A stretch of 64,000 nucleotides of DNA from Mytilus galloprovincialis (Eukaryota; Mollusca; Bivalvia; Mytilida; Mytilidae): contig NC_134848.1 in the NCBI RefSeq assembly GCF_965363235.1, positions 60,722,181 to 60,786,180 of the forward strand, read 5' to 3'. The notes under the pieces are model-generated. The model was not told the DNA's origin. It did no database searches and saw nothing but the letters and a program-made list of their open reading frames with translations. A program made the translations under genes and the position numbers. Of the stretch, positions 5,839 to 64,000 are shown one piece after another (the first letter of the stretch is position 1; the number at the start of each line of letters is the position of its first letter).

Positions 5839-6647
5839 TTAATGCTGATCACAGTGGCTATTCTACAAATTTAAAAAAAAAGCGGATTACTTGTTATATT
5901 GTTATCTCGGGTTCCAAATAAGTTTGAAATTCAATTTGTTTATCTTGTTTTATATGTTGTTATGTTGGATAGTACCTAATAATTAATGCATAAAATTATT
6001 TGATCAATTGGTCCAAAATGGTCAATAAATACGCAGATCTATCATGACATAATGTACAACGCACTTCCGTTAATGCTGAACCGAATCGAATATTACGTTA
6101 TAAGATATGAAACTGACTGTAGAAGATATTTGAGAATTTAAGATTAGGAACAATACATTTTAAAACATTAACACAATAAAGAGTCATGAAATGAAGGTAC
6201 CGCAACTAAACTTTATCGACATATACATTAAGGATAAACTAGATGGACAATTGCTTTTGCTTGAACTTGAATCTCATCTTAATCCAATTTTTATAACCTT
6301 GAACATACACACATACAAATGAAAGGAGAGTGTGGACTAAAATGACAAATTGCAATTTGTTTATTTTCATAACTTACCATAGGTCGCTTGCAAACAAATC
6401 TTGCCTTTCGACTGCACATAATATCATTCCATTTACCATTGTCATACATGCCATACATGTGGCAACAGTTTTCGCCTTGATCTCTGTGGTTATTTGGTTC
6501 TCCGGTATTCCAATTAGAGTAGGTTAAAGGTACATAATCGTATGACCAGATCCAAATTCCTGTTTCACTATCTGTTGCTCCAATCCAGTAAAGATCAGTA
6601 CCTGCAGTAGACATATGTGTAAGTATGTATGTGTGTGTGTGTGTGTA

Positions 6648-6707
<60 letters not shown>

Positions 6708-30447: not shown

Positions 30448-33400
30448 TTACCGCTGATCAAAGTGGTTATTCTAAAAAAGAAAAAAAAAACTTGTTATAT
30501 TCTGTAGGTATAAATTATCAGTGTTGTTTTTGGTTTCTAATTAGTTTGGTATTCAATTTGTTTAGCTCATAGATATATCTTGTGTTTGTGGATAATAACT
30601 AATAAGTGATATGTATGGTTAAGAGATCGATTGGTTAAAATGGCCAAGAAATAAGCAGATCGTTCAAATGTTTTCCTGATTTACAAAATACTTTCGTTCA
30701 AGCCGATTTGAAACAATTACCGTGTAATAAAATATGAAAACAAAACTGTGGAAGACATTTAGGCATTTTACGTAATGAACAATACCTTGCAATACTTTAC
30801 ATATTTAATAGTGGGAAAATATAATCGACAAAAATTAACATGTTGGAAATATGCTTCAAAAGACATTAACATACAATGAAATTAATTTTTGAATACATTT
30901 TAAGCTTTTTGTAAAAATACGTCAAGAAAGACTTACTGTATCATGTATATTTGTTTTTCTCTAAACGAGAAATGCAATACCGGAACTACCGCTAAACTTA
31001 ATCTATGATTTATATACTGAAAAATAACCACACTACACATGTAAAGAGAGTGTTGATTAAAATATCAATGTATATATACTCATTACTTACTGCATGTCGC
31101 TTGCAGACAAATTTTGCTTTACGTCTGCACAATGTATCATTCCATTTTCCGGTTACATACATGTGACAACAGTTTTCGCCTTGACCTTTGGCATGTCGTC
31201 TGTTATTTGGTTCCCCCGTATTCCAATTAGAGTATGTCAAAAGTGAGTAATCATATGACCAGATCCACTCTCCTGCATCAAAATTTGTTGCTCCAATCCA
31301 GTAAATATCAGTGCCTGCAAAAATAAATCTCTTTCGATTAACCATACTTGGAACAGGTGTAGGAATGCAACGTTTATCCATGTTTTATGAGATCAATACC
31401 CCTTTTTTTAGCATTTTATGATAAGTCACAAGCAGAGGTAACATATTGGTTGGTTAAATGATTGTTGTTATTTTTAGCGCCACTTCGGCTATTTCATGGA
31501 GACCGGTTTTATTTGGTTGAAAAATTTGGTTGCAGAAGCCGGATTGTCCTAGGAAAACTGAAAATCCTTATCAATTAAGATTAGGGTCGAGTCCACGGGT
31601 GTTGTACCAACTCACAACCTGAGTATTGACTGACTGGTAATTACAGCACTGTAGTGGAACTACTAAAACCGCATGGTCACAACCCCCTCCCCGGATGTAA
31701 CACAAAACACTTATCAATATAACAATGATTAACATGAATTAAAAAAAGAAGTACTAGCAGTTATTGATATGCCAGTTTAAGACCTCTATCAAGTCATTGA
31801 AAGATTATTTCTTCGTTGTATGAAAATCAAACTCAATCCTTCTTGTAGGATTCCAGTATCATATCATCATAAAGTATACGAGTAGAACATAACCCGTACC
31901 AACAACTTGCTGTAGAATAAATGTTTTGTATTTCAATGCAATGGGACTATGAGTAAATCAATATTAATCCTACAGAGTGGCATATGTAAGGACATGCTAA
32001 CAGTACCGTTACGGTCACTATATCCCTCCTTTATAAATCTGTTTAAAGGTTAGTTAAGCCTCTGAGATGAATGAGGACATTTGTGTGGTTTATATAGAAT
32101 ATTACCATACATTATGGGATTTGAAATATCTTAACGTATCAGATGTCTCATGTAGATTAAAAGTTACGAATGCTGTCATGTGCCAATGATACAATTTGAT
32201 ATTTGATAAGTACCTGCAGAAAAAAATGGTCTTTCGATGTGTCTTACTTGGAACTGGTGTAAACATGCAACAGGGTTAAACATTTTTTATGAGATCAACT
32301 TCTCCCCTAAGCATTATAAGAAGTTACAATACGAGGTAACAGATTGCTTGATTGATTGTTGTTTTTTTAAACGCCACTTTTTAGTGCCACTTTCGGTATA
32401 TTTAATGGAGGCTGGTTTTAATTGGTTGAGAAAGCCGGATTGTCCTAGGAAAACTGACAATCCTAGTCATTTAAGATAAGGGTCGAGTGCATCCGCACGG
32501 GTGGGGTTCCAACTCCCAACCTCAGTGTTGACTGACTGGTAATTACAATACTGTAGTGGAACTACTAGGATCACATTACTACAACCCCCCTCCCCGGAGG
32601 GAACACAAATCACTTATCAACATAACAATGATCAACATGATTTAAAAAAGAAGTACTAGCAGTTACTGATATTCCAGCTCAAGTCATTGAAAGATTGTAT
32701 CTCCGTCGTATGAAAATTAAGCACAATCCCTCTTGTAGGAATTTAGTATCATATCATCATAAAGTATACACGAGTAGAACATAACCCGTACCATGCATGC
32801 AAACAACTAGGACTAGGAGTAAATCAATAATAATACCACAAAATGGCGTCTTTAATGGCATACCAACAGTATCGTTACAATAATTATATCCCTTTATAAG
32901 TCTGTTTAAAGGTTAGATAAGTTTTAAAGATGAATGAAGACATGTGTGTGGTTTGTATAGAATATTACCATACATGATAAGATGTGACATATCTGAAAGT
33001 ATCACATGTCTACAGGTAGATTGATATACCGGAACACTGGCATGTATCAATGATACAATTTTGTAAATGTTATAGAGAGTCCGAAATATCAAAAACAGTG
33101 TAATAATGTTCCAATACTACATAGAATTCTTAAGTTGCAATCAATTACGTTGTTTCAAACACGAGTGCATCGAACAAGTCGAAATAAATAAACACCATTA
33201 GATGTTGCTTAGTGAACTTTACCATCTAAAAATGAATAACTAACGATTAGAATTCTAAAGATATTTTTTTTCATTTGGCTTTGAGATTGTATTGCTATTC
33301 AGTTTTTTGTTTACCCTTTAGGTTCGATTGTATCCAGTTATTTTCAGTAACATCTCTCACATCTGCAAGAAATGCATTTTGAGTCCTGCAGTATCTCTGA

Positions 33401-44294: not shown

Positions 44295-45030
44295 TAATTA
44301 TATATAAGACGTCATATGTTCCTTTCCGGTTTCAAACATTAACATCAAACATTATAAGACTGTGTGTACGCTTCGGAATGTAATAAAATTTAAAAAAAAA
44401 AAAAAAAAATTCGGATGAAAATTTTTTTTTATATACTATAGGACAAATTATAATTGTATGTTGCCATGGTATTAACCAGTAAGTATATAATTCGTGTAGG
44501 AAGAAAAGTTAAACGATTAATGTTACAATAAAAAAACCCACTTTAAATTTGACTCTTCAAAGGACCGACATTAAGTCATAAAAAGTAAGTAAAATATATT
44601 TTTATTGTTCAAGGATTATAATATTTCAATGTACACGGGTAACCGCTTGACCAAGAATTCAATAACAAATCATGCCTGCTTATATTCATTTGAATTGATT
44701 GTTTTTTTTTTTATATTCTCCATATCTGTTTTTTTATTTATAGTGCAGCAAATTTGTAGATACATTTAAATCTGTGAACCCTTCACTAGGATCAAAAGCA
44801 TCATCGAATGCCAAAAGTTTGCAAGACTAACATGATAAATATTATTTCTTCAAATTTACTTATTGCAGCTTATGTATATCAAACGTGTTTAAGAAATTAC
44901 TATAGCTCGTGATATCTATGGTGATACAACAATGGAAATATAAACAACTTGTTTTTTTATATAACGTGTTGAATGTAATAAGGTGACAAACTCTGAATGA
45001 ATCCGAAACTTAAAGATATAGCCATATATA
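44295..45030. other. Intergenic stretch with A- and T-runs
   Basis: Nothing recognised. Confidence 0.4.
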
Positions 45031-45034
45031 TAAA

Positions 45035-45200
45035 AGAAGACGTGTTGTAGTTGCCAATGAAATAACTCTAAATAAAAGACAACATTACACAGAAATAATT
45101 AACTTAAGGTCACCGTATTATGGCCTTCAATAATAAACAAGGCTTATACCACATAGTCATCTTCAAAAAGCTTCGAAATTACCCCCTTCATGTTAAGGTA
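45035..45200 (-). repeat. Dispersed repeat family E fragment, inverted
   Basis: Contains TTGCCAATGA, AGGTCACCGTATTATGGCCT and ATAATAAACAAGGCTTATAC, the reverse of the family E tail. Confidence 0.6.
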
Positions 45201-45215
45201 TTGAAGAGAGCAAAA

Positions 45216-45221
45216 TTTATT
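45216..45221 (-). terminator. Candidate polyadenylation signal for the kinase-like gene
   Basis: AATAAA on the minus strand about 235 nt beyond the stop codon at 45455. Confidence 0.35.
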
Positions 45222-45454
45222 TACAAAATAACTGGCAACTGCAACCTTGACCTATCATCAGAAAATCGACTGAACTGCTTAAATGATTATCTCTATACAT
45301 GCAGTTAAGACCATTTTTGGAAGAAAGATGTCGAAATAATTGAATTCTAAACATATATTTTTTTTTCATTTTAAAAATGTAAATATCAATTTTGAAAATA
45401 ACTAATCATTTCATCCGAAATATATACAGAACAATTGCATTTAAAATTGATTAG

Positions 45455-48400
45455 TCATTGATTCATGTAATCATCCTCTTCCACTTCGTCCACTTCATCA
45501 TATCCATGTTCCGTACAAATTTCGTAGTCACCAAAAAAGTGGGATATGTATTCAAATGTTATTCGAGAATCCGGGTCTTTAGACCAGCAATCTATGGCAT
45601 GATCATAAATAGCTTCAGGACAACAATCAGGTCGTATGTGCCTTAAGTCCCTTTTTATTCTGTTAAATACCTCTGGATCTTTCAAGTCTGAAATGAAAAC
45701 AACAATATATAAAATACTTGAAATATATGTGTAAATGGTTTATAAGATTAGTACAATTTATGATTAGATTGCAATAAAGGAAAATAAAAAAAATTATAAC
45801 AACACAATCAAAATTTCCTGTAATTATAATTTGCTGAGATAGTGACTAAAGTTCACATTCATGGGAAAATATTTTTCGCTATTCGAACACACTCCGTATT
45901 TTAACACAAGTCTTTTGGTGTAAACAGATCTTACATGTCATATATGTGTCCAGAGAAACTCTTCTATGATCGTGAATTTTTACTATCATTTTAGGAAATT
46001 CAGTTTTAGTCGAACAATAGTCTTACGCATTGTTTGTGTTAGTATTACCAAGGGTATGGTTGATTCATTTAAATTGTTCCGTGTATATATATTTTGTATG
46101 TTATTCGTCAACTTAAAAAACCTGGCCATCATATCATAATTATTTTTATATTTGTATACGATTGACAAGATAAAATAACAAACGTATGTGACACAATTTT
46201 CGAAATTCAATTGTTTAAACTTCTTCCACTTGTTAATTCTTTTATTTGACCATTTAGATTTTATTTATAGTAGGTAACACTGGTTTAGTTTAAACATATT
46301 TTATTTGCTGAATTAAAGCAAAATGGATAAGACACAAGTAAATTGTACTTATGAAGTCTTCTCTATAATACAATATAAAGTTACAATAATAGTATAATAT
46401 AATAATATAATGGACATGCATATAAAACAAACAGTTTCTACAATATAATACTAGCTTTCATAGGTGAACAAAGAGGAGAGAAAGTAAAAAGAGAAAAAGA
46501 AAGTTTGAAAAGTCGTATTATTCTGTGCCGATGACTTGTGAATTGATGCTAACGATGACGCTCCATGTCAGCAATAACAACGCTCTATCAAGGCATAAGA
46601 AATCTGTTTGACCTTTTTATGAAATTTTGAACATGTTTGAAAATTTGAGAATATTTTGTTCGTTCGAAAGTTCCAAGTGTCCGCAAATTAATAGTTTTGT
46701 ATCTAAAACTAAGTTTTCAGATAGCCAGTTAATGTTATGAAATAAGGTTTTTCTACATAATGTGTATTTTGGACAAACCAAGAAGTAATGGTAGACATCC
46801 TCAATATCGGACCCACAATAAAGGTAACACTTGTGAGTCACAGAAAGATGAAACGATGTCTTGCGTACAAAATATAAGTCATTTTTACCGAACCTAAATT
46901 AGGCGAATGGTGGATTTACATTGTTTAAATTATAAATTGTTAACCAAAAATGTCAAGAATACAATTTCCTTATACATGTGACGTATGTAATTTTTACCAT
47001 TTCAATAATATTATCTAAAAGCGAAATTTAAAAAAAAAAAACAATATATCTTTTAAATTTACTGTAACATCTGGAAACATTACCTTCATAAGGTATTTGA
47101 CAGTGTCCAAACACTTCCATTAATAGTATTCCAAAAGACCACACATCAGATTTGGTTGTTGCTTTTTCACCTTCGATTATCTCTTGTGCCAACCATCTTA
47201 CCGGAGGAATAGTGCCTACATGTAGTTTAATAACATACTTTAATTGTATTTTCTATTGCTAGCTAAGGTAAAGATAATGCTTTCTCTATCTGTTTTTCAT
47301 TCAACTTGGGTAGTTGTAGATTTTAAAAAATAAATATTATATTCTCTAAAAAAACAAGCCAAAAAAAAAAAAAACCAGACATTGCTATCCAATTTCTAAG
47401 TGCTCACCATTTATAACTATGCTGTTTTATTCTGTAAACTAGAACTACAGCAGCTAAATATGGACAACTATTATTTTTTTTACATTTAACTGAAAGGGAT
47501 TAGTTTTTATCCGTTAGATGAATTAACGTGAACCTGCATTCAAATGATTGACGAGTTGAATATTTTTTATAAAGAGTTATACAGACTTTGGCAATATCCC
47601 AAATAGAAAATCCAAGAAAATATCATTGCTTCTCTACCCCCTAAAAATTGTAACCAAGGAAAATAATCAAATTTAAGTATTTAAAATTGATTTGATACTA
47701 ATGTAATGACGTAATATTCCAATTTGAATCAGTATCATTGGCTCTTAAACGTATTAGATAACATTTTTATCAATTTCGTAATTTTAACACCGATTTACGC
47801 ACTTTTAGCTTTTGCATTGCTGTCAGCTTTTATTGATCGAGGAAGCAGTAGTATAAACTATTATTACTGGATTAGCAAATATTTCTTCATCTTGTTCCTC
47901 TGCGTCATTGGTTTGATTTATAGGTACAAGAATCGTCGTCTGATCATAATTGTACTTATTTGTGTCATATTCCTGATAACGAAATTATGACAGAAAATGC
48001 ATGCAAAGTATGATACGGGTTCAGTCCCAAGCCATACTTTGATTGGTTTCCTATATACCGATATGACAGATCTGAATATCAGTCAACATGTTGCCGTTAT
48101 TCATACAAAACTATGTTAGATCTAGACGTTTAATATCAATGTTTTCAGACATTTGCATTTACATATTTTAGCTAGTTTAGATGTTACTCACGTCTTCGTT
48201 TGGGATCTATTGTATGGTCGTTTGTCATATGCGCAAACTTAAACCCACAAACTTTCGGGGTCCAATTAGTTCCAAATAATATATTGTCTGCTCTTAAATC
48301 GGAATGGATAATCTCCCTTGTTCCTAGAAAATCCATTCCTTTAGCAATCTAGAATATACAAAATTTAAACTCAACGTACAGTTTTTTTTTATATTGATAA

Positions 48401-51400
48401 ACTTTATATTTCGTCGTGAACGAATACATACATACGGTTAACTATGTTAAATATAATTAAACAAGGTAGCTTTTACATTAACTCCAAAAACTGTTACATT
48501 TCGGCTATTGTTTTTGATCTGACAGACTATGAGCATAGACTTATTGTAGTTTCTTACTAGTTTTCATATAGATTCAACCACTGTATTAACATGATCGAAT
48601 GTGTAAAGATATTTCTTGCATCGAGGCAGATTAATTTAAGAAATGTAAACATGAGGCTTACTGAGCTTTTCAAGTGTTTAAAATTGAACTGTTCAGAATG
48701 GAGAAAATCGTAATGCATGATATATTTATAGTGGCTGTATTTGTTCCTCTCGTGAGATTTAGACGATACTGAAAACAAATGTATCTTTTCTTTTTTAACA
48801 TTCTCAGAACGTTGTGGTTTTATATAATTAAATAATCAGGCATTGTCTTTTTTTAAGAAGTCATATAGGAACTCTAGAAGAAAGCAACAAAATGGAGGTT
48901 ATAATTGAATTTTGACCAATTAATTGGCGAAAAAAAATCTTTTCTGTATGAAAAACCTTTCTTTTTAAGCTAATCATGAAATGTAAAAATAGCTTCAAAA
49001 TCCTTATTAACTATATGGAAAGATACCCGATACTGCGATTTTTTTCGAGTTAATTTCAAAGAATTTTATATAAAACGCCTTATTCAAGAAATGTCTATAG
49101 AAACTAAAAAATATTTTGTGTATTAAAACGACATGAAAAGTTTTAGTGGAAACACAAATCGAGCATTACAGTTTATATCTTGGGATGGGAATGAAGAACG
49201 TAGATATATTGTACATTCTGTTAAAAGCGTCAACTACCTAAGTCTTGACATATATGGTTTATCTATTGAGTAGTATGAAAAAAGGTAAGATTGAAAAGAC
49301 TCGTGAAAACATTATTTGTTTTGGAAAAGAACACTGTCACCTTAGATGTCATTTCAGTCATATGCTTCATAGACGTGTCCATTGATGTATGCTCATCTAA
49401 TAAAATCTGTTTTAAGGTATATTCCGTAAGATATTCCATAACTAGAGATACTGGATGGTGCTCTGTGCTGACTCCTATCATTTTGATCACGTTCTCATGA
49501 GATGTCCCCTTTAAAATGTGAGCTTCCTTCAAAAAGGACAACGGGTTATTATCAACGTTTTTCTTCACGGCTATTGTAGAACCTTGAAACGTTGCTGCAA
49601 ATAATCAGAGGTCAAAATGTTGTTTGTTTCTTTTTCAAATATCAAATTGTATTGGAAATACATATTAAATGCAAAACAAACAATACAAAAATAGAAAAAA
49701 TACAATGCGAGCCCTACGTGGTTGGTGGATCCAATGATTTAGTTTTAGGTATATGACTTTGCATGTAATACAGTCTTTACAACTGAGGGTCTATTGTGTG
49801 ACTTTACATTTTGATACAAACTTTCTAGTGATCAGATAACATCTATAATAATCAGACTTCAATAAGACAATGAATGCATAAACATTTTTGTTATTCATAT
49901 GACATGTATAAAGGCAAAACAGTTGACATTGTTTGGTGAGTAATTATCCCTATTGCATACATACCTCGTATTTGTATGTTCCAATTGCAGATTAATCACT
50001 TTTATTTATTGTACGAATATTTATATTTATATATATTATGTTAAATAGACATTCATTTCAATTTGAACTGTATCACATTTTCAATTGTTCGTTTTTAGCT
50101 TACCCTTCCAAACTCGCCCGGAATAAACAGTTTTTTCAAACCGATCAAGGGATGATCTTTTAATATCAGGAAACCATCCTACAGTGATAAAAAATAGTTT
50201 GAAATGCATTATTCTCTGGTATTTTATTGAACAAAAGAATACGATTCAAAAATATTATATAGATCTACATGTAGAAACTTTCAAAAATAAACAAAAACTC
50301 TGCAATAAACTATGAGATAATATTCGATTCTGCAAAACGAAATGTTAGTATTATAGCTGGTATATTTTTCACAATATTAACAGCATTTATAAACAATATT
50401 TCAGATGAACATTAATTAATGTAATAAGGATGGTAGCGTTTTTTTTTTTTATTCCAAAATGAGACTATTGTAAATAGTACGATTAGCTTACACATGTTCT
50501 TCAGAAAAAGACTGTACCAAGATAGGAATACAACTGTCGTTTTCCATTCATAAAGTCGAATATACGAAGTGTTTCCGAAAAAGAAAATTTTTGGCATACT
50601 TTTACGAGGAACTTTGAGGTTTGAAACATATATCTATATATATATACGAGTCTAAATTGAAAACTACGTTCAAACCTATGATTGAGTTGGATAAAAACCG
50701 CAATTTTTATACGTGTGCATGTAAAACAAATTTCGTTGTAGAAGGGTCTAAAATCAGCACAAACAACATTTTCAAAAAGACCAAAAAAGTGAAAAAGTAT
50801 ATCTAAACAAAAAGCATTTGACTAACAGGTCGAACAACTGATGTCCTTTAACCCTGCTGACTGCCATTGGCGATTGCCAAATAAAATTGATCACAAGATG
50901 TAACAAAATGTATCTTAATATAAATTTAATAAAAAAAACAGAAAGAAATAAAATTTTGGCCACGATGTTATACCACAAACATACGGTATCAATATTTTTT
51001 TAGTACACCAGATCCGGATTTCGACAATAAATGAAGTACGTCTGAGTCAGTGACAACTCTACAACAGATATATATCCACTTTCATTTTTCGATAATAGTG
51101 TCGAAATTTTTAAAATCGTATACAATTTATTACTAGGATTTTGATATACGGTGACTAGACACGCCTAACTTTTTTGTTTTAGAAGATAATTGCTAGCTGA
51201 GTTTTATAATTATAGATTCTACCACTGCATCGAGTGTAATACGATATTTATCACCTCGAGACAGTTAAATTTTCAAATTTAAAACGCGAGGCTTGTCCGA
51301 GCGTTTTAGATATTTAAAATTTAACTGTCGAGAGTGGATAAATATCGTATTACACGAGATTTGGTGGTAGAATCTGTTTCTCTTAAGATTTTCTAACATT

Positions 51401-52215
51401 ATGCAGGCAAACTTATTCCGTATTTTCGAATTATCTGCAAAATGTGTGTTCTTTCTATGTGACGTCACCAGTCATGATCGCCTTTTTTCACGCCGTCACA
51501 ATAGGAAATTCAGAAGAAATCAAGAAAATTCGATGTCATGATCGGATTTTAACCAATGAAGTACTGAGATCAAACTAACTACACGTTGATTAAATTTTTT
51601 TATACAATGGGAGCAGAAAGGGATAAATTGACGAACGAAGAATTAGAGAACAACATATCCAATATCGTTTCATCATAAATATACAATAATCTTGTACTAA
51701 AGTTCTTTAAACTCGTTTTTAAGGATTCATGCCCGTAAATTTCATATATTTATCAAATTAGAAAAATAATATTCATGATTTCTTCATAAAAAGTGGTACA
51801 AATAGTCTTCATATATAAGCAAGTCATTTATAAAAAAATAGTTAATGTATTCATTTTAAACTAATTAATAAAATCTGTCGAACATGCATCTTTTCCCGAT
51901 ATTTCATTGTTTGACGTGGCGAATAATAATATTTTACTCTAGCGACGTCATGACCTCCCCTCTCACTGTGTCTTATGCCTTAAAAGTGGTTACTTACATT
52001 AGTCATTATGGTATAACGTGTTTGTTGTGAACTTTATACATACCGGTCGAGGTTTTTGTTTTAGGTTCTGTTAATGCAGTTTTCGGATCTGAAAAATAAA
52101 AATACTATTTCTATAAAGCATGGATATATTTTGAGTCATTGTCATATGGTAGAATAATCCACTGATATGTTTGCATTCATTTGTTATAAAACTTACCTGT
52201 ATATTCTAGAAGCAT
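45455..52215 (-). CDS. Src-type tyrosine pseudokinase domain (possibly 3' half of a TRIM-like fusion gene)
   Basis: Minus-strand exons are 52215-52197, 52088-52044, 50178-50104, 49594-49341, 48348-48192, 47215-47084 and 45687-45455; splice sites and phases all agree and give 304 aa if translation starts at 52215. The order is linker, then kinase domain from about residue 29. The beta3 lysine (IAVK, K57) and alphaC glutamate (E70) remain. The glycine loop is shortened to VYSGRVWK, HRD is HSD (146-148), DFG is GFK (166-168), APE is AQE (193-195), and the activation loop has no tyrosine. The C-lobe (SDVWSFGILLMEVF, ITFEYISHFF) is close to Src/FRK kinases. The protein ends EEDDYMNQ. SH3 and SH2 domains are absent. 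It is therefore probably a pseudokinase acting by binding. An alternative 5' end joins the TRIM-like exons upstream; residue numbers follow the short form. Confidence 0.82.
46600..46920 (-). pseudogene. LINE reverse-transcriptase C-terminal fragment
   Basis: The minus-strand frame includes RFGKNDLYFVRK, CYLYCGSDIEDVYHYFLVCP and LLICGHLELSNEQN. This is the cysteine/histidine C-terminal region of non-LTR retrotransposon ORF2 (CxxC...HxxxxC). No reverse-transcriptase core precedes it. It sits in the last intron of the kinase-like gene. Confidence 0.7.
51214..51375. mobile_element. 162-bp palindromic MITE
   Basis: The halves are near-complete inverted repeats. GTGTAATACGATATTTATC and CAGTTAAATTTT in the left arm pair with GATAAATATCGTATTACAC and AAAATTTAACTG in the right, around a short centre near GAGGCTTGTCCGAGC. 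The ends are GATTCTACCA and TGGTAGAATC. It is intronic in the kinase-like gene. Confidence 0.85.
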
Positions 52216-52539
52216 CTGATTGTGAACATAGATAAAAATGTTAAATATACGTTTAAAAGTATAACAAAACTTTCTAACTCCAAGTTATTTTCAAAATGCA
52301 GGAAATGGAGAAAAAATATCTGCCAAAGTCAAGTTATACTGTGTCCACTAACTGAATAAATGAAAAACAACTATCATATTTAGTTTTGGGACAAGATTTC
52401 TCAAAAGAAAAATGCTAGATTTAACAAGGATTGAAAAAAAAAAGAAGTATGACCTCTCGCTATTAATATAGTAGGTAATTGAGTTAAACAAAACATAAAA
52501 TATGTATGGCGAAATATTCGAATTCAAACTGTGTCAACA

Positions 52540-53010
52540 CTATCAGATAAAATTGAGAATGGAGATGAGGAATGTATCAAAGAGACAACAACCCTACCAT
52601 AGAACAGACACCAGCAGAAGGACAGCAACAGGTTTTCAATGCAGCGAGAGAAAAAAATATAAAAAGACTAACAAAGACCAGAGGCTCCTGACTTAGGAAA
52701 GGCGCAAAAATGCGGCAAGGTTAAACATGTTTATAAGATCTCAACCCTCCCCCTATACCAGTAGCCAATGTAGAAAAGTAAACGCATAACAATACGCACA
52801 TTAAAATTTAGTTGAAGAAAAGTCCGAGACTGACGTTAGAAGATGTAACCAAAGAGAATAAACAAAATGACAATAATATATAAATAACAACAGACTACGA
52901 GCAGTTAACTGACATGCAAGCTCCAGACTTAAATCAAACTGATTGAAAAATTATGTCTTCATATTAATATCAGGCACAATCCTTCTCGTTAGGGGTTTAG
53001 TATCAAACCA
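52540..53010 (-). repeat. Family A retroelement 3' tail, inverted
   Basis: The reverse complement matches 38600-39232: AGGAATGTATCAAAGAGACA, AGAGGCTCCTGACTTAGGAA, CATAACAATACGCACATTAA. It lies between the TRIM-like exon 2 and the first kinase exons. Confidence 0.8.
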
Positions 53011-53138
53011 TGAAAACAAATATGAGAAGAAAAGCCTACATCATTAACACATTAAACACCTGGAAAAAAATCTAACAAGCAAACAAAAGAATCTCAGAAA
53101 GACTTACAACTCACAACTGTTTAATCGGGATTTCCCAT

Positions 53139-56100
53139 CTATCTATTTTCAATTTTTGGAATATACTTTATTTCTCGTTTCTCACCTAAGCAATGCGATT
53201 TGATGCGCTCTTTCGGGATATTCTTTTCTTTGATGCTTTCAGCATTTTGTCTGTGTTCATGTTCTTCGCCTTCATTATGCATTAACACATTGTCTTCTGT
53301 TTTAACGATAATTGATCCAAGTTTCTGGATACGAATGATGTTAGTATTTGCTAATTTGATATAGAATTTCTGCATTTTAGCGTTAGTTGTCTCATATCTC
53401 TTTTTGATAGTAGACAACTCCTTGATCATATTTCCTCTAAGTCCAAATTTATTATTTGCAAAATCGTAATTTTCTACAGATGCAAGATGTTGTAGAAACT
53501 CGTCCAAAGATTTTTGAATATCAAGAAGTTCTCTTTTCTGGGTATCGTACGATCCTTTGCATTTGTCTATTTCAGATGATAACGTACCCTTTAGCTCAGA
53601 CTCAAGCTTCAAAAATGTACACTCGATTTCTTGTCTTACTTCTGCAATTGCATCAACAACTTCATTTTCTTGAACTTTAAGGTTTAGGTTATTGTGTTCA
53701 GTTAGCTCTACCAATTCATGTATTTTGTTTTTCACATCTGTACATTCATGTACCATTTCTTTGTACCATGAAGATCGTTGTGGTAATTTCTCATTACAAT
53801 CAGGACTTTGAGCTTTATTCCAGCAAACCTCGTAACCTGTACTAGATAAAATCACCTCATGTTGTAATGTAAACTTGTTACGCTTATGTGCGTCTGCGCA
53901 TGCCACACACAACGGTTCTGAGCACTCAGTACACCAGGCCGCTGTGCTGTTGTGTAAATTGCCTCTTTTGCAAGACTCACATAGTTGTGGGACTACCAGA
54001 TTATAGCTACATAGAAAGAAAGGTGTTAACGTCAATGTTTTTAAGAACTTTATTGTCTATTATCCCCTTCACTGTCTTTAAGATACAAGGAGAGAAAAGT
54101 CAAACACAGTGTTGGCTTATGTTTTAAATTCTACTAAAATAAATATTTACATTCATATACATACAAAGAGGAAAAAAAAACAGGTCACTAATTAACAACA
54201 AAAAAAATAAAAATAAAATATTTTAATAATAAAAAACCAAGCGTTGTCAAAATTGAATAAAATTAAACTTAACAGATAGATTTCGCGATCGTTATCACTT
54301 CTTTAACCACTTATCTATTAAAAAAGATATGTAATTATATAATAAACATATACCAGAAATATGATAACGTAGAACTTCAACTGACTTAATAAAATAAGGT
54401 CTGAAAATACTGTTTGATGCATACTAAAATATAGCTTTCTTTTATTGTGGTAAACAATATTCATTTCCTGTTGATAGACTAATTCGATGGTACTAATTGT
54501 TTTGTATATTGAAGGCGATACCAGTATAATGGTAACAATATAAAGACATGAAGAAATATCAAATACAATATCTTTCAAGAATCCCCAGACTTCGTGTGTT
54601 TAGAACCAGTTTTAATTGATTACGGTTAAAGCTTCAAAACAGTTTACGTGTGCACACCAATTAGTTTCATTGTTAAAATTAAATGACCTCCCAATAAACA
54701 TAACAACTTTTTTTAATGTCTTGATACACAGTCCCTTTGTTCTACGTTGATTGTATCTGGTTTACCTTGATTGTATTAATTACATATTGTCCTACTTATA
54801 TATTTATTTGATTATAACAATAAACACACATAAATATATAGTTAAGATGTTTGATCCATAACCGTATTAATTACGACATTTTAAAAGTGATATAATATCA
54901 AAACAACAAAGGTAATGTATAGCACATATTTGCCATTTTGTACCTATACCAAAGATAAACTTAATTCACAGCAACATAATTTATGGTTTCATAGTATTTG
55001 ATAGAAATTTGAAATTGTATGGCAAATAAATGCATGACGAAATTATGTTAAAAGATCATAGTATAGCTAACTAGGTAGCATTATGTCATAAAACTAGAAA
55101 AACATATAATTCACGTTATCATAGTTATGGTCCCTTTAAATTTAAAAAAGTTAAATTCAATTTATTTATTATAATTATGTATTCCGTAAAATTATATTTT
55201 AAATGAGGTCAATGGTAGTTAATACTTAAAAAAGGAATTTCTGTTCTTCCTCGTAAACCGTAATACGAATGTAGATCTAGTTGAATAAAAGTATAAAATC
55301 AAAGTAAAAAAAAAAATGTTTTCTAGAATCAACGTAACAAAATATGAATGCCTTAGCTTGTTTTAAGATGACATCTGTATTTCAAAAATGATGCAATACA
55401 CATAATACATAGAACCATTGACAACTTATAACTTTTACTTGCTTAAATATACTTAAATTGCAAAATGTAGGAAAGAGGATTAGGGTTGGAACCAAGTTAA
55501 AAGCTAATGTAATGATATATTCTGTTGATTTAATCATTGCAATGTTTGCACACTTCTTGTTGCTTCGTTGATACATAATTTCTGTATACAAGCATATTTC
55601 AATTCATATCATTTTATGAAATCCATAAAAGTCGATATCATAGGAAAAATGACTAATCGATGTTATGCTGTCGACATTGTGACATTAACCTTTATTTGTG
55701 TAAAAATGAACTATCTTTTATTTTATTATCTAAAAACTGCAGTTGGTTGAGTTGTTTGTTCGTGCAGATATATAAGAGCATTTTTTCAGCTTTCTTTGCA
55801 CAAATAGTTTATTTCATTAGTATACAGAAGGAGAAAGATGATAGCATTTTCAACATTTGGTTTTGTTAGTTTATTTGTATCCTTGAGCATGATAACAGTC
55901 ATGTATAATTTGAACTTTAAAAAAAAATGAAATTGCGTCAATGTTTTTGTTGATTCGCAAACACGATTGGCAAAGTTTACATGTTTGATCCATTTTTTAG
56001 CAAAGCTAATGATCCTGTAAGTATACACTCGCTTTGATTGGTATTTATAATGACTGCATTTGTACTGTTTCTGCTTGTAACTTCGATGTATCTCGTAATA

Positions 56101-56955
56101 AAAGTAACCCTGTTTCAAAATTCAAGGTCCAGGTTAACATATAATATGCTATGATTCACTTGTAATTTTAGTTTTATTGAAATAAATGTAAACCGATTTA
56201 ACTGCATTGATATTTAAATCATTGCGTGATAGTTTTATAGATACCATACAGACAATATGCATTTTAACTTCCTGATTTGAACGTTGTTCATGTTCAGTCT
56301 ATGGAAGAAGCGAATCGATAAAAACTTGTCATATATCAACGAGCGATATTGCCTTATACCAACGAGTTGCATTGTGGGAAATTTCAGACGCATGTTAGCA
56401 TTTGAACGAAGTAAGGCAGATTTCTCGGTATAAAGTAATGACTCTTTTCTTAACACAGGGTGACATTTAACTCCGACATACGTCTGCTGTATAACTTCCA
56501 TGAATTATTTTATATTATAGCAAGCGATGTGTATTTAAACGAGAAAATTGAATTGTTGAATAAATGAAACATAAATGCACGATTTATCATTTGTAGATGT
56601 ACACATTCAATAAATATCACGTAGCAAATTCAGTGGAATGCAATTGAGATGAATTCAATTGTTTGCTAAGTCAAAATCACCTATAAGACAAAGATACTGC
56701 TATATTTTATTACAACAATGCAATGTTTGTCTTATGTCATAGCGATCCTTTTTAAATATCAAAATTTAAAACAAAATGCGATATCGATTTATATTTAAAA
56801 AGTACTCACGCATGTGTCAATGTTATTTTATTTAATCTATGAGCCGCTGTACAACTGGGACATAGAAATTCATCACACGACGGACAAAATGAAATTGCGT
56901 CAATGTTTTTGTTGATTCGCAAACACGATTGGCAAAGTTTACATGTTTGATCCAT
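53139..56955 (-). CDS. TRIM-like protein with two B-boxes and coiled coil, no RING
   Basis: Exon 1 is 56955-56810, starting AAAATGG and ending CATGC|GTGAGT. Exon 2 is 54006-53139. Phases match, giving 337 aa. Residues 5-48 form a first B-box-like zinc module (CKLCQSCLRI, CPSCDEFLCPSC, AHRLNK, TLTH). Residues 58-98 form a B-box 2 (CESCKRG, WCTECSEPLCVAC, AHKRNKFTLQH). A charged, heptad-like stretch from roughly 130 to 260 is predicted coiled coil for oligomerisation. There is no RING finger, so no evident E3 ligase activity, and no NHL or other C-terminal domain if it ends at the TAG at 53139. Such TRIM-like proteins are numerous in bivalves and tied to immune signalling by analogy. A strong donor (TTAG|GTGAGA, 53186/53185) 15 codons before the stop could splice into the downstream kinase exons. 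The methionine at 54035 is intronic. Confidence 0.82.
55924..56783 (-). repeat. Tandem duplicate of TRIM-like promoter plus 5' part of exon 1 (copy 1, intronic)
   Basis: It aligns with 56886-57690 at an offset of 962 bp. It carries a second ATG (55993) and the first 24 codons of exon 1, then diverges at AAATGAAATT into T-rich DNA with no donor. It is a truncated exon inside intron 1. Confidence 0.88.
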
Positions 56956-57690
56956 TTTTCAGCAAAGCTAATGATCCTGTAAGTATACACTCGCTTTGAT
57001 TGGTATTTATAATGACTGCATTTGTACTGTTTCTGCTTGTAACTTCGTTATATCTCGTAATAAAAGTAACCCTGTTTCACAATTCAAGGTCCAGGTTAAC
57101 ATATAATATGCCATGATTCACTTGTATTTTTAGTTTTATTGAAATAAATTTAAATCGATTTAACTGCATTGATATTTAAATCATTGTGTGATAGTTTTAT
57201 AGATACCATACAGAAATGTGCATTTTAACTTCCTGATTTGAACGTTGTACATGTTCAATCTATGGAAGACGCGAATCGATAAAAAACTTTTCTTATATCA
57301 ACGAGCGATATTGTCTTATATCAACGAGTTGCATTGTGGCAAATTTCAGACGAATGTTAGCATTTGTAAAACAGGGTGACATTTAACACGACATACGTCT
57401 GCTGTATAATTTCCATGAATTATTTTATGTAATAACAAGCAAGTTGTATTTAAACGAGAAAATTGAATTGTTGAATAAATGAAACATAAATGCACGATTT
57501 ATCATTTGTAGATGTATACATTCAATAAATATCACGTAGCAAATTCAGTGGAATGCAATTGAGATGAATTCAATTGTTTGCTAAGCCAAAATCACCTATA
57601 AGTCAAAGATACTGCTATATTTCAATGCGATGCTTGTCTTATATGATAACGATGCTTTTAAAATATCAAAAATTTATGAATGCGATACTT
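56886..57690 (-). promoter_or_regulatory. Promoter region and exon 1 start of TRIM-like gene (copy 2, intact side)
   Basis: Upstream partner of the duplication. It leads into the complete exon 1. Shared landmarks are GTAAGTATACACTCGCTTTG and GTTTGCTAAG.CAAAATCACC. No TATA box is assigned. Confidence 0.55.
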
Positions 57691-57977
57691 TTCTAATATA
57701 ACTGCTATAGTTTTCTTATATAAAATGAATACGATGACACGTCACAATGCATGTCAAGAAAACCGCAAACATAATTCACAAACTTAGTTCATGACGACAG
57801 ACCGGCTTAATGTTTGAGGATCAATATCACTTGATAGTTGAAAGTATTAACAACCTGTTCAGTCTTTTGTTTTCAATCACATGGTTTAACCGACTAATTC
57901 TATTTGAAATGGTGATGCAATGGAAGAATTTAAATGCGGTTGTAAATACTCTACCGACCTATTAGATTCTAATATAG

Positions 57978-58130
57978 GTCCAATGGTGGATCAAGGGAGG
58001 AGGGTCCGGGGGTTGGAAACCCCCTTTTTTTTGCCGATCATTGCATTTGAATGGGGACATATTGTTGGACCCCCCTTTATCCTCGGTTTGAAATCCCCAT
58101 TTTGAAAACGTCTAGATCCACCCTTTAGGT
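57978..58130 (+). repeat. Short repeat with GTGGATC/GATCCAC ends and G/C runs
   Basis: Starts ATGGTGGATCAAGGGAGGAG, carries GGTTGGAAACCCCC and ATTGCATTTGAATGGGGACA, and ends CTAGATCCACCC. I recall this as a widespread invertebrate repeat. The frame through it is a by-product. Confidence 0.6.
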
Positions 58131-58439
58131 CACACTGTTATAGCCTATCCACATGGGTAATATCGAAATAGACAAAAAATAGCATTACTTAAAAGAAAAA
58201 AAATATTCCAATTAAATCAAAATGTACAAATGCTGATGTCCCGAACTTTGAAGATACCAACTGAGTTGCCTCAGACTATAAATTGAACGACTTCAGATAC
58301 AACGAAAATCAAAACTGTCGTTCCTGTTAAAGCTTTAGAAGTGTGCTAGTTCATATTGCACTTTACAAAAGATTCAGCACCCAAATGACGTTTTTGTAGG
58401 ACTGGAAAGCAACTATTTATTAGGGAAAATTTAAAAAGA

Positions 58440-58600
58440 TTTATAAATATAAGAAGATGGTGCATGAGTTCGAATGAGACAACTTTCCATCAAAGTAAAA
58501 AATTGATTCAAGTAAACCATTATAAATCAAAGTAGGGCCTTAAACACGGAGCCTTAGCTCACAGCGAACACCACGCTATATAAGAACAAAAACATTACTA
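58440..58600 (-). repeat. Dispersed repeat family E fragment, inverted
   Basis: Diverged reverse of the 17.85 kb tail, with AATGAGACAACTTTCCATCA and GGGCCTTAAACACGGAGCCT. Confidence 0.5.
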
Positions 58601-58608
58601 GTGTTAAA

Positions 58609-59435
58609 CAGGGTTGGCAAAAAACCGGGTTTTATGAGTATTGCCAAGCCCAGTGGGAAATACTGGGAAAACCCGGGTTTTACTGGGTTTTAGTGGGTAA
58701 TACTGGGCAATACTGGGTAATATAAAACACTGGTCTAAATTGTATAGAGGATTCAGTGATCTAACACAAATGTTATACATTTAAGATATTTATAATCTAT
58801 TTTGTTTGTCTGGATTGGTAAAACTGTAAAAAAATTATTTTCTTTTAAATAAATATAACTCCTACTAGGAATTAACAATTACATGTAAGAAAAATTACAT
58901 TTAAATAATGTATATTTACTGTCACTAATTAATAAGTAATTATTCAGATTAGAATGCAGTTTGTTTATGTAGCAATAATCAGCCCTTTCAATTCTATAAG
59001 TGTTAATGGCATGACCCCTTAGGGTGTTTATTTAGCAGTATGAATGTATAACATTTAAAATTAACAATGCACTTAAACACTTTTTTTTCAAAGTCTGAAT
59101 TATTGAAACAATGCTTGGTAATTAACAAGCTAGGTATCCCTAAATGTGCAAAATCTTGTATTGTGTCTACATACATGACATAGAAGAGAACGAAATTGAA
59201 TTATTCATTCTTCTAGAAATAACTGTCAATGGTTATCTGTATAAAAAGTATATATTTAACTGTAATACTATGAAACTACACTAAGTCTTTGCTATTTTGT
59301 GTTAAAATAAGCTTAAAAAATCATATTGCCCAGTAATGCCCAGTATTACCTAATTCTGGGAGTATTGCCCAGCCCGGGAAAACCAGGGTTTTCCCACCCG
59401 GGAATTCCCGGGCTGGTAATACTTTGCCAACCCTG
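58609..59435. mobile_element. 827-bp non-autonomous hAT-type element
   Basis: The tips CAGGGTTGGCAAA and TTTGCCAACCCTG (the latter preceded by AC) are inverted. The eight bases GTGTTAAA are repeated perfectly on both sides (58601-58608 and 59436-59443), the 8-bp duplication expected of hAT transposons. Subterminal regions are packed with repeated TACTGGG/CCCAGTA motifs on opposite strands, likely transposase-binding arrays. There is no transposase frame inside. Confidence 0.92.
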
Positions 59436-59699
59436 GTGTTAAACCATTCAAACAGGAAAACCAACGGTCTGATTTGTATAAAAAGGGAGATTCAAAAGTA
59501 CAGGTCAGATTTTGTCGAATCAATCTGAACGAGGACAATATGATTCATTTTTGTCACAAGTTAGTTTCATTGTTATCAATAAAGAAAGTCTTCCATGCGT
59601 GCGTTGCGAGCATATCAGATATATATTATTTTGGTGCGATCATTATAGAATTTGCTAAATGTTATATATGTGAACAATAATGTTGATACTTAGCTATTT

Positions 59700-59900
59700 G
59701 ATTAAGACATTGTTTATTAAACCCAAAAGGTACTGGCATTTTCAAATTTTTAAATGGTGGATTGAACCTGGTTTGATAGTGCTAAACATCTCACGGGTAT
59801 GACAGTCTCATCAAATTCTGTCATATTTACAATGATGCGTGAACAGAACACACATAATAGGTAAAATTGTCAAAATATAGGTACAGCAGTCAAATATTAA
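59700..59900 (+). repeat. Dispersed repeat family D fragment
   Basis: Contains GGTGGATTGAACCTGGTTTG and AAAATATAGGTACAGCAGTC. Confidence 0.7.
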
Positions 59901-60179
59901 TACTAATGAGTACTAATATTGATATAACAAAAACACCGCTATGATATTTTAAAAGTATCGCATTGATATTAGAAATAATAGCATTTGTATATTCATGTAT
60001 ATAAGAAAAACACAGCACTTCAAATTTTACACGGACATAAACGTTTGCTTCTAACTAACTTCTAAATGTATATTTAGACTCAATTGTTGTTAATATTTGA
60101 ACAATAAGTTTTAAAGTTAGTATTTTCTTAATTTTTCGTTGCCGAAAACAACATTTTCCACATAGAATGTCTGCATATT

Positions 60180-60255
60180 TACAATTGATATTAGACAATA
60201 TCGCTATGTGATATAAGAAAAGTTTTTATCGATTCGCTTCTTCCATAGACTGATG
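60180..60255 (-). repeat. Inverted copy of a TRIM-like upstream block
   Basis: The reverse complement matches 57245-57320: CTATGGAAG, GCGAATCGATAAAAA and GATATTGTCT blocks. It shows that part of the promoter-side sequence is itself dispersed. Confidence 0.6.
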
Positions 60256-60399
60256 TTATAAACATGAATTACTTTAAGTGTTTTATAATATTACTATAAA
60301 ACTTAATATTAAACATGAGACCTGATAAAAACAATAAGGAAATAATCTAAGTTAAATATTGGAAAGCACATATACTGATATTTCACATAATATTGTTTC

Positions 60400-60720
60400 A
60401 AAAAGTAAAATCCAAAAAATAGCGAACGCCGAGCAAAATTCAAATCGGAAAGTCCCAAAAAATGGCAAAACCAAAAACTTGATCACATCAAACGAATGGA
60501 TAACAACTCTCATATTCCTGACTTGGAACAGACATTTGTTTTATGTAAAATAGCGGATCAAACCTGGTTTTATAGTTAGCTTAACTTCTAACTGGTATAA
60601 CAGTCGCGTCAAATTTCATTATATAGACAATGAGGCGTACACAAAACAAACAGACATAATAGCTAAAATGTCAAAAGATACAGCAGTCACCATCTTAAAA
60701 CAATCTTAATCACAATAAAA
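60400..60720 (+). repeat. Dispersed repeat family D fragment
   Basis: Contains CATCAAACGAATGGATAACA, TTCCTGACTTGG and AAAGATACAGCAGTCACCAT. Confidence 0.7.
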
Positions 60721-61104
60721 AAACAACGAATACGTAATTTATTAATGACTTGTTTCACCTCAACACGCAGTACTTACAAATTAGAATTATCAAAATATAT
60801 TAATGTGATTTTTATGGATATTTAGCAATGTTAAACAAATCAGAGGTTAATCTTGTCATTACTACATTTAAACATCAGATAATCTCGATTAAAACAGATG
60901 ATTAATTGTACTAGTTTTTCGGATGTCATAAATGAATGGTGCAATGACACATATTTAAACTACCTGCTCACATTATTTAAACAATGAATCATTTAACAAC
61001 TGATATTTCAATATCAAAGAGTGCCATACATGTCATATAATCAGATTTTATGATATTCACATAAACAAGGTTGAGTCTTCTTTTCCTATTACTGAATGTG
61101 CACT

Positions 61105-61225
61105 TACATCAGCAACACGACGGGTACCACATGTGAAACAGGATCTGCCAAAGCACTGAAGATTAGTCCTAGCATTTGTTTAAGTTCGTGTTACTCTGTC
61201 TTCAGATTGTGAACTACTGTTTGTC
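61105..61225 (+). repeat. Family B 3' tail fragment
   Basis: Contains ACGGGTACCACATGTGAAAC and AACTACTGTTTGTCTTTTTA. Confidence 0.55.
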
Positions 61226-61629
61226 TTTTTACTGAATCTTATTACACAGGGATTATACAATACTTTCATACACAGACTCTTTGAGAGAAAAAAAAATGAT
61301 TTGATTCACGCCAAAATTAAGATGTGATGGATTACACGGATGAGTGTAAGGTAGAAGGATTTATTTTATATTTGGATAATATTATAATGTTTCATACTTA
61401 AGAATATTTTGGTTTCAATAAAACCTTCATAAATGACACATTAAAATGGAATAATATGTTTTATTCTCTAGAACATTGTATACAATAATTTATAACTGTA
61501 TATGAAACAACAGATAGATGTCTGCCCCGTTTGGAGCCTTTAGAGGCTTCCGGCTGGGAAGCGCGTGCTTTTCATCTTCTTTTCGTAAAGTCGGTAAAAT
61601 TACAACTTTATTCCTAAAATCGTAGGGAG

Positions 61630-61950
61630 AAATATGAATAGAAATGGAAATAAAGAATGTGTCGAAGGGACAAAACCCGACAAAGAGCAGAGAACAGCCA
61701 AGGGCAACCAATGGTTCTTCAATACAGCGAGAAAATCCCTATACCTCTACTCAATCTAGAAAAAACAAACACACGACAATACACACAGCTAAACTTAGTT
61801 TAAAAAGAGACCGAGTCCGATGTCAGAGTAGACAAGACACTAAACAAAAGGACAATGATATATGAATGAATAAAGGACTATCATCAGTCACTTACTTAAG
61901 CTACAGAACTCCATTAAGTTGCTAGAAAGATTATGTCTCTACATATTTAT
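61630..61950 (-). repeat. Family A retroelement 3' tail, inverted and internally deleted
   Basis: Contains AAGAATGTGTCGAAGGGACA, CTATACCTCTACTCAATCTAG and AACAAAAGGACAATGATATA. Middle portions of the family A tail are missing. Confidence 0.65.
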
Positions 61951-61954
61951 ATAT

Positions 61955-63065
61955 ATCGAAATGTTTTGTATTTTTTCCGGACTACAACTTGTTCTTATAT
62001 CACGTGCTTCTTTTGCTTTGTGAATAAACCCATGCCCTAAATCAAATAAAGTTTGTTTGTACATGCGTATATTAATTACAGCAGGATAATGAATTTTATC
62101 AAATTGGTATGCATTTAATTTACTTAAAGTACGGAGTTACGTTATAAGAACAAAAAACAAAAACAAAAAGTCGCATATACAAAACACACCAGCAAAAAAG
62201 AAAGATAATACAAACACATTGACGGGATGTTTGAGTACCTAGCCATGTTAAATGGATATCAAATTAAACAATCAAACAGTAAAAGTAATATTGATAATAG
62301 AACACAGACAAATGAATGAACAATATAACACGTTTTTAAGATGATAAACAACATCAGTACACAGAATCTATACATCAAGACCATCATGTATTATTTGTGC
62401 AGTTTATACGGAATAATTATCAACAAGGTCTTGGTACCTTCGATGAACTTTTTTAGGGAAAAGGCGAGACTAATTCATTCATTATGGCTGTCATGTGCTG
62501 CAATTCGAAATTGACATATTTGACCTAGATACGACAACGGTTCATGATGGCTGTTCATAACTCATCCCTCTGAAAATCACATTGCCAGTCGTTTACTTTT
62601 TTTCCAAACAAAAAGGGCGGTTCATGGAAGAGCCTACACAATCTCTCCATACCTATACTCATCGGACAAATAAATTACCTTAATTCTCCTAATCAAAATC
62701 GACATAATTGATGCAAGTTATACTTTATTGTAGTATTAACATGGGCAGGCATTATATTTGTGTTATTTTAGCCCTCACTGTCGCTCAGGAAAAATAATCA
62801 CGAATATAATGCCTTATCATGTTAAAACTAGCTTGCATAAATTATTTCTTAAATACACACCAAACAGAGGGAGAGGTTGGATTGGTAATCTTGAACATTA
62901 TAGAGACAAAGTAGATGACACATATTTGAGGTTTTACACGTAAAGTGCTAGGAATATATTTTTGCATTAATAAAGAAGATTGTGAGAAGCTAAATTGGGT
63001 TACTATATAAGTCCGTAGCACACATTAAATCATATTCTGAAACACAATATACATAAAAAAAAAAA
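61955..63065. other. Intergenic stretch, no gene recognised
   Basis: AT-rich. The frame at 62758-62943 has no recognised domain. Confidence 0.4.
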
Positions 63066-63071
63066 CTAAGG

Positions 63072-63650
63072 AAAAATTCGTATAGTCAAAACCCTCAATA
63101 CACCATTATTTATTTGTTAGCGAACGTTATTTTTTTTATGAATTTCAATATATTTGATCTAGAGAGACACATCTTGATTTTTGTATGAGATGGTAAAAAT
63201 AAAAGAGATAGAATATATAAGTTTGATAGAATATTTTAATCACTGAGGGCTTCAACAACTTCAATAGCTTCTTACCATCTCTCAAGAAAAGATGGGTGTC
63301 AAGATTGCCACAATAATAAACAAATAATTGGAGGATGATCCTTAAACTATTCTAAAAAATCCGGAAAAATTCTAATAGTCAAAACCCTCAATACACCATA
63401 ATCTATTTGTTAGCGAACGTTAATTTATTATGAATTTAAATATATTTGAACTAGAGAGTCAATTCTTGATTTCTGTATTATATGGTAAAATGGAAAGAGA
63501 TAGAATATATAAGTTTGATAGAATATTAAGATTATGGAGGGCTTCAACGACATCAATAGCTACTTATCATCTCTTAAGAAAAGATGGGTGTAAAGATTGC
63601 AACAATCATTAACAAATAATTGGAAAATGATCCCAAAACTATTCGAAAAA
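63072..63650. repeat. Tandem pair of ~288-bp units
   Basis: Unit 1 is 63072-63359 and unit 2 is 63360-63650. Both share GTCAAAACCCTCAATACACC, TTGTTAGCGAACGTTA, GAGATAGAATATATAAGTTT and AAGAAAAGATGGGTGT. In unit 2 a 60-codon frame is open; in unit 1 it is interrupted. Confidence 0.88.
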
Positions 63651-63654
63651 ATCC

Positions 63655-64000
63655 GGAAAAAAACTAATTCATTTTATAATGAAATTTAACAACGATGTCC
63701 AAATGCTCTAGATATACAATGATATAACTAAAGATATTACTATTATCTATTAAGGTACTAATAAATGTAAGTTTGATTATAATTTTTGTAATACAAACAC
63801 AAAATTGAATCAAAGCGCGAAAGCGCTGTAAAGGCAGTTAATTACAGGTTGTGTGTATTTCTAGTCCATGACCAGTTATATCATTATCTTCCACAGAACA
63901 GAGGTGGCTTGTAGTATTTAAGATTTAGAGTTCTCTTGTTCCTAGTTCACCTATGTTTATAGTCTACTGTTTACTGTATATTTTCTGTACCTCGCCATGG
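63655..64000. other. Window end, nothing recognised
   Basis: AT-rich DNA with a small AAAGCGCGAAAGCGCT motif near 63813. No gene was seen. Confidence 0.4.

Follow-up and report, generated by a model that had tools for sequence, protein, structure and literature searches.

TRIM proteins are known to self-associate through their B-box and coiled-coil parts, and TRIMCyp carries a RING. STRAD pseudokinases, which belong to another kinase group and are devoid of a B-box, have Gly at the position of the DFG Asp and are regulatory rather than catalytic. Mind bomb and HERC2 contain RING or HECT domains and have no tyrosine kinase domain. In the accessible text of the respective papers, TRIMCyp is described as a TRIM5-cyclophilin fusion that arose from a retrotransposed cyclophilin A (PMC4378998), an expansion of Src is reported for the oyster kinome (PMC4883820), and B-box and Mib-herc2 orthogroups are both tabulated in a study of bivalve gene family expansion (PMC8382680).

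The locus described here lies in a 64,000-nucleotide stretch of Mytilus galloprovincialis DNA (C11:60722181-60786180, hereafter the window), at window positions 45455-56955 (C11:60767635-60779135), and it was compared with a genome of 1.38 Gb. We consider it probable that this region is one gene coding for a B-box-(B-box)-coiled-coil-Src-type pseudokinase, in which the front of Src has been swapped for exons of the ubiquitin system. As in TRIM proteins, B-box zinc fingers are followed by a long helical region, but no RING is matched by the regular expression described below, and the C-terminal part is a Src-type pseudokinase. TRIMCyp likewise joins a TRIM-type front to a new C-terminal domain, which in that case is not a kinase. 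The window kinase scores best against Src and Lck, and its intron phases match those of the mussel Src gene; the gene differs from the Src family in having no SH2 match nearby, in the loss of the DFG Asp, and in a degenerate glycine loop. As in STRAD, Gly takes the place of that Asp. A likeness to Mind bomb and HERC2 appears elsewhere in the genome, where a related pseudokinase at C14:66.13 Mb is preceded by MIB_HERC2 and ZZ exons and MIB_HERC2 exons are found at two more loci.

The gene model consists of eight exons on the minus strand, all introns are GT-AG, and the joined frame is open over 620 codons. Exon 1 (56810-56955) contains the ATG and the first B-box (49 aa) and ends at the donor GC/gtgagt in phase 2; a truncated tandem copy of it, 97% identical at a repeat spacing of 962 bp, is located at 55924-55993 on the same strand. 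Exon 2 (53186-54006) encodes the second B-box and a predicted helical/coiled-coil region and ends at the donor TTAG/gtgaga in phase 1. Since the stop-to-stop frame of exon 2 (53139-54056) contains no Met ahead of its B-box, the start is supplied by exon 1. If the exon 2 donor is not used, the frame reads on through a tail of 15 codons, including the split one (GEKREIKYIPKIENR, 53139-53185). An optional, phase-neutral microexon of 9 nt (52197-52205), when included, gives 623 instead of 620 aa. The linker exon (52044-52088, phase 1-1) starts with AT, completing the split codon G/AT, and it is followed by an exon with linker and degenerate glycine loop (WFPDIKRSSLDRFEKTVYSGRVWK, 50104-50178, phase 1-1), the N-lobe exon, in which the AVKK lysine and the FLKEA glutamate are retained (49341-49594, phase 1-0), the catalytic-loop exon, with HSDLRADN for HRDLAARN and CGFK for ADFG (48192-48348, phase 0-1), an exon in which AQE replaces APE (47084-47215, phase 1-1), and the C-lobe exon running to the stop (45455-45687), with a Tyr near the position of the Src tail Tyr (TEHGYDEV) and an acidic tail.

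This reading agrees with the original prediction in the phase-1 donor at 53186/53185, in the two codon-completing bases at the start of the linker exon at 52088-52044, and in the order of two B-box exons upstream of Src-type kinase exons on the same strand, the last being borne out by Pfam and by a PDB sequence search. The frame is open to the kinase stop as predicted, and the longer product is indeed 623 aa, but the shorter one counts 620 rather than 621 aa; likewise, the seven exons assigned to the kinase side are obtained only with the microexon, and six remain without it.

In the front part, Pfam recognized ANCHR-like_BBOX (4.9e-7) and zf-B_box (7.5e-7), two stretches each and over the cut-off, and by inspection the zinc-ligand Cys and His residues are present in both B-boxes. 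The second of these is not a true B-box 2: at that place, about 28 aa present in the two parallel loci described below (P1 and P2) are missing from the window copy, which instead carries an extra upstream B-box exon. For exon 2, an AF2 single-sequence model gave two long helices at low confidence (mean pLDDT, 54), and in a heptad test 29 of 300 shuffles scored as high as the window sequence, versus 1/300 for P1 and 53/300 for P2, so that a coiled coil in the window copy is weakly supported. A C3HC4 regular expression for RING had no match on the minus strand of window positions 45001-64000 plus 9.8 kb upstream, nor at P1 or P2; it was run frame by frame, to which an intron-split RING is invisible, and its single match over all 90 loci makes a weak control. 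With no RING found by this expression, an E3 activity of the protein's own is unlikely. Most of the B-box relatives listed in this genome consist of one long open frame of roughly 550-600 aa.

The kinase part matches PK_Tyr_Ser-Thr in Pfam at 6.1e-58, and Src and Lck chains are its top-scoring sequences among solved structures. Its DFG motif reads GFK, with the Asp lost, and its HRD motif reads HSD, with the Asp retained; the beta-3 Lys is retained, and the N-lobe Lys and Glu are both kept. The lost DFG Asp supports the assignment of this domain as a predicted pseudokinase, as had been claimed. The model begins with MDQ, so the Gly2 for myristoylation is absent.

When the genome was searched with the kinase part (72 matches, 148 of 212 candidates scored) and with the B-box part (38 matches, 137 of 983 candidates scored), both queries listed the same two loci, C2:11.19 Mb (P1) and C2:46.85 Mb (P2), with the B-box first and everything on one strand. 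P1 can be read as six GT-AG exons with an open frame of 647 aa, P2 has a P1-like order with a long first intron, and in both models the ATG is immediately ahead of the first B-box. Pfam finds the kinase domain at both loci; in the front, B-box 2 of P1 alone exceeds the cut-off, the other B-box of P1 and the two of P2 matching below it. The window gene, P1, and P2 all share a B-box/coiled-coil exon, a phase-1 intron, and a Src-type pseudokinase, with phase 1 at the junction of B-box and linker, phase 1 between glycine loop and N-lobe, and then phases 0, 1, and 1; the window gene differs from both in one additional phase-1 intron within the linker. In P2, the activation loop can also accommodate an SH3 exon without a break in the frame, and this exon, used as a single-exon genome query, found 25 places, none of them on C11. 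Because the same genome holds other genes so built, we reasoned that the window gene probably belongs to a real gene family and does not represent two neighbouring genes. The claim of a single fusion gene is thus supported by P1 and P2 in domain order, split-codon phase, and kinase intron phases, and further by the lack of SH2 matches near them and by the joint seen in a Src gene, all of these being features of genomic sequence.

A canonical mussel Src gene, with VAIK, HRD, and DFG intact, is located at C1:86.23 Mb, where SH2 (of which the end was read) is followed by a phase-1 intron, a linker exon, and phases 1, 0, 1, and 1. Since these phases match those of the window gene, the B-box exon occupies the place of SH2, pointing to replacement of SH2 by a B-box exon through exon shuffling. 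We considered SH2 exons hidden upstream of the window kinase and rejected this idea, as a whole-genome scan with PF00017 (54 matches, 81 of 81 first-look candidates scored) revealed no SH2 within 2.6 Mb of the window gene on C11 or in the neighbourhood of P1, P2, C14:63-66 Mb, or C13:8.2 Mb. SH2 matches do lie upstream of kinases at C1:86.23, C1:34.30, C1:130.92, C2:1.80, C3:64.18, and C8:86.15 Mb, as compared by eye.

The last kinase exon of P1 has its closest kin at C14:66.14 and C14:63.14 Mb (58-59%). Upstream of the kinase at C14:66.14 Mb there is a MIB_HERC2 (3.5e-14), a ZZ (1e-4), and a second MIB_HERC2 (1.7e-10), and the last MIB exon likewise ends in phase 1 with G/AT. A genome scan for MIB_HERC2 yielded 37 matches (125 of 125 candidates scored). 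Six of these, including one below the family cut-off, form pairs on the same strand upstream of pseudokinases at C14:66.13, C14:63.13, and C13:8.22-8.23 Mb; about 0.002 such placements are expected by chance. The MIB-kinase locus at C14:66 was read, and those at C14:63 and C13 were joined by position alone, with selected exons read and a gap of 10.5 kb between MIB and kinase at C13:8.22-8.23 Mb. The group has a B-box/coiled-coil front at three loci, all of them read, and apparently a MIB_HERC2 front at three others. At all seven pseudokinase loci read (window, P1, P2, C14:66, C14:63, C13:8.22-8.23 Mb, and C13:8.16-8.18 Mb), Gly replaces the DFG Asp, the motif being GFK in the window, GFG in P1, GLE in P2, GFR at both C14 loci, and GFH at both C13 loci, versus an Asp in all four comparison mussel kinases of the 10-row kinase set. 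All six aligned pseudokinases have an Arg-His pair in the C-lobe, which those four kinases lack. Loss of DFG is also found outside the group, in the kinase at locus L018 (SLS).

How closely the window gene is related to P1 and P2 was assessed from scores and trees. Among the fetched loci, gapped comparison of the window B-box exon gave P1 as the best match (83.6 bits, the next being 68.6), and P2 scored 59.7 bits, below several unrelated B-box loci; the B-box exons of P1 and P2 are mutual best matches, both among the fetched loci and genome-wide among the candidates scored. In the genome-wide search with the window B-box exon, the top single piece was C14:16855756 (36.7 bits) and not P1, which was split into pieces of 33.2 and 30.9 bits. 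Summed scores for the window kinase were 134 for P2, 130 for P1, 129 for L022, and 116 each for L015 and L019, and by identity its nearest kinase is canonical Src (34-35%). The wider kinase tree had 14 rows (of 12 candidate loci, two gave no match and one was too short) and left the pseudokinases unresolved. In a 10-row tree, for which seven distant kinase rows were dropped and three added, the pseudokinases were grouped with support 64/88 and in 60% of bootstrap trees, 2 of 500 shuffles being as low, and the window, P1, and P2 together had support of 41/71. The B-box tree of 28 rows (three models plus 25 loci with a match of >200 query positions) also grouped the window with P1 and P2 (70/28, 68% of bootstrap trees, 1 of 500 shuffles as low). 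The groupings in the kinase and B-box trees are weakly supported, and the window branch is the longest in the B-box and 10-row kinase trees and among the long ones in the 14-row tree. Since canonical Src is the nearest to its kinase by identity, the window copy may have evolved fast within the group or may stem from a separate fusion event involving a related core.

Proximity was also weighed against chance. The probability that one given B-box place lies within 12 kb upstream, on the same strand, of any of 138 kinase places is about 6e-4, and the expected number of chance neighbours is about 0.004 for 127 B-box places and seven loci, about 0.1 for 3307 first-look B-box candidates and seven loci, and about 2 for the 3307 first-look candidates and all 138 kinase places. 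Because this estimate depends on the counts used, the argument for a fusion rests on best relatives, order, frame, and phases and not on proximity alone.

The interval between the B-box and kinase exons bears on what is transcribed from the locus. It had been claimed that no AATAAA occurs on the minus strand down to about 52500; as stated this is right, since none was found between the window B-box stop and 52216, but it lends little to a fusion. Much of the interval is a dispersed repeat (52547-53031, minus strand), whose genome copies mostly show about 90% over 53031-52654 and in one case 84% along the entire repeat (40 of 7060 candidates scored), and ATTAAA, a possible alternative poly(A) signal, lies on the same strand at 53120-53125, 13 nt after the read-on stop. 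The absent AATAAA is therefore weak evidence, and we rejected it as an argument for the fusion. The linker frame also has an in-frame ATG at 52215-52213, just upstream of the microexon and followed by a phase-1 donor. Given this ATG and the ATTAAA, separate or dual products are possible.

A reading compatible with the fusion, to which we assign an appreciable chance that falls somewhat short of even, is that one gene yields two products, a short B-box/coiled-coil protein through intronic polyadenylation and a long spliced fusion. A poly(A)-type hexamer is found soon past the read-on stop both in the window and in P2, where the B-box stop is followed within about 230 nt by AATAAA at 4102 and 4186, and the B-box exon has a short read-on tail in the window, P1, and P2 alike. 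However, neither AATAAA nor ATTAAA was found in the 404-nt interval after the B-box stop of P1, and hexamers are common in window DNA, with 12 AATAAA in the 2803-nt intron 1.

It is unlikely that the region holds two neighbouring genes, one of them a B-box/coiled-coil gene that stops at 53139 and the other a pseudokinase standing alone, with its start at the ATG at 52215, even though the ATTAAA and the ATG with its donor could serve them and false novel architectures from wrongly merged neighbours are documented in the accessible text of PMC4967905. The arrangement recurs at P1 and P2 with an agreeing split-codon phase in all three; at P1, the intron between B-box and linker is just 415 nt long and no in-frame ATG lies ahead of the linker exon, so that no independent start is evident for the P1 kinase. 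A Src-type kinase without SH2 or another front module also seems unlikely. That the B-box-pseudokinase family is represented in the window by a decaying pseudogene, to which the long branches in the trees, the gap at the true B-box 2, and the truncated copy of exon 1 could be attributed, is quite improbable in view of 620 codons without stop or frameshift, splice dinucleotides all kept despite large divergence, and the zinc ligands present in both B-boxes.

Thus, we favor a single fusion gene and infer that its B-box and pseudokinase exons are co-transcribed. The SH3-SH2 front of a Src-family gene would have been replaced via the phase-1 intron before the SH2-kinase linker, the incoming exons being ubiquitin-system modules, either B-box/coiled-coil or, apparently, MIB_HERC2. 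In the protein, the B-box/coiled-coil part would self-associate, and the kinase domain without the DFG Asp would keep its fold and may bind nucleotide; since neither that Asp nor the glycine loop is kept, normal Mg-dependent transfer should fail. Such an oligomeric dead-Src protein could function as a multivalent scaffold or decoy: by binding the partners or substrates of active Src kinases it would modulate Src-dependent signalling, perhaps in immunity. A short B-box/coiled-coil isoform may arise via the ATTAAA after the read-on stop. On a broader and rather doubtful view, mussels would possess a "swap-head" family, in which an inactivated Src core receives interchangeable ubiquitin-system fronts by phase-1 shuffling, and whose members, including P2 with its SH3 exon, would be integrated decoys guarding Src signalling.

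The original prediction held this architecture to be undescribed. No protein with a B-box or MIB joined to a tyrosine kinase was found among the literature matches listed, with preprints, most subscription papers, and architecture databases outside the scope, and the same architecture is absent from the accessible text of PMC4883820, PMC8382680, PMC11817969, PMC4967905, and PMC5549309. This suggests that the B-box-Src-pseudokinase combination is undescribed, in the sense of not found in the literature searched.

Taken together, the locus would be an animal case of a tyrosine kinase whose regulatory front has seemingly given way, at one defined intron, to modules of the ubiquitin system. This apparent replacement affects three fully read loci, and perhaps as many as six within the genome; every member that was read has lost the DFG Asp. 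If the swap-head view is true, members of the family may sense or blunt attack on host Src signalling. If expressed, these genes would make it possible to test how inactive Src kinases rewire signalling when B-box or MIB modules cluster them, in an animal that lacks adaptive immunity.

Among the related pseudokinases of the same genome, a different front was found on C14, where exons encoding MIB_HERC2-ZZ-MIB_HERC2 are followed downstream by a Src-type pseudokinase carrying the motifs HRN and GFR (C14:66129101-66144274; fetched stretches L076+L075+L030). This locus has a near copy at C14:63.13 Mb. Upstream of a pseudokinase at C13:8.2 Mb, MIB_HERC2 matches were also detected.

P2, a locus with a B-box/coiled-coil exon ahead of its pseudokinase, contains an SH3-encoding stretch (PF00018, 3.9e-17) at reverse-complement coordinates 12599-12778 of L073+L074 (C2:46840501-46857000). 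Flanked by the acceptor tttcag and the donor atcg|gtaagt, this stretch is of phase 1-1 and fits in frame between the catalytic-loop exon and the next kinase exon. Of the other SH3 places detected genome-wide, the closest to it is at C10:10119144, with 54% identity.

Loss of DFG was also observed outside the B-box/MIB_HERC2 pseudokinase family, in a tyrosine-kinase-like ORF (1375-2004 of L018, C3:17643143-17646622) that has SLS at this position.

In the window, the gene's exon 1 lies within a duplicated stretch (55924-57674) whose pieces are 85-97% identical, with copies spaced 962 and then 907-915 bp apart; the downstream exon 1 copy is truncated. A 292-bp unit is repeated twice in tandem at 63070-63668 (86% matches). 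Two minus-strand ORFs (6291-6743 and 31010-31384) containing WIGATD...NWNTGEPNN...CCHMY presumably resemble C-type lectin domain exons, and we take the plus-strand ORF run at 20550-23216 to resemble BEL/Pao-type retroelement polyprotein fragments.
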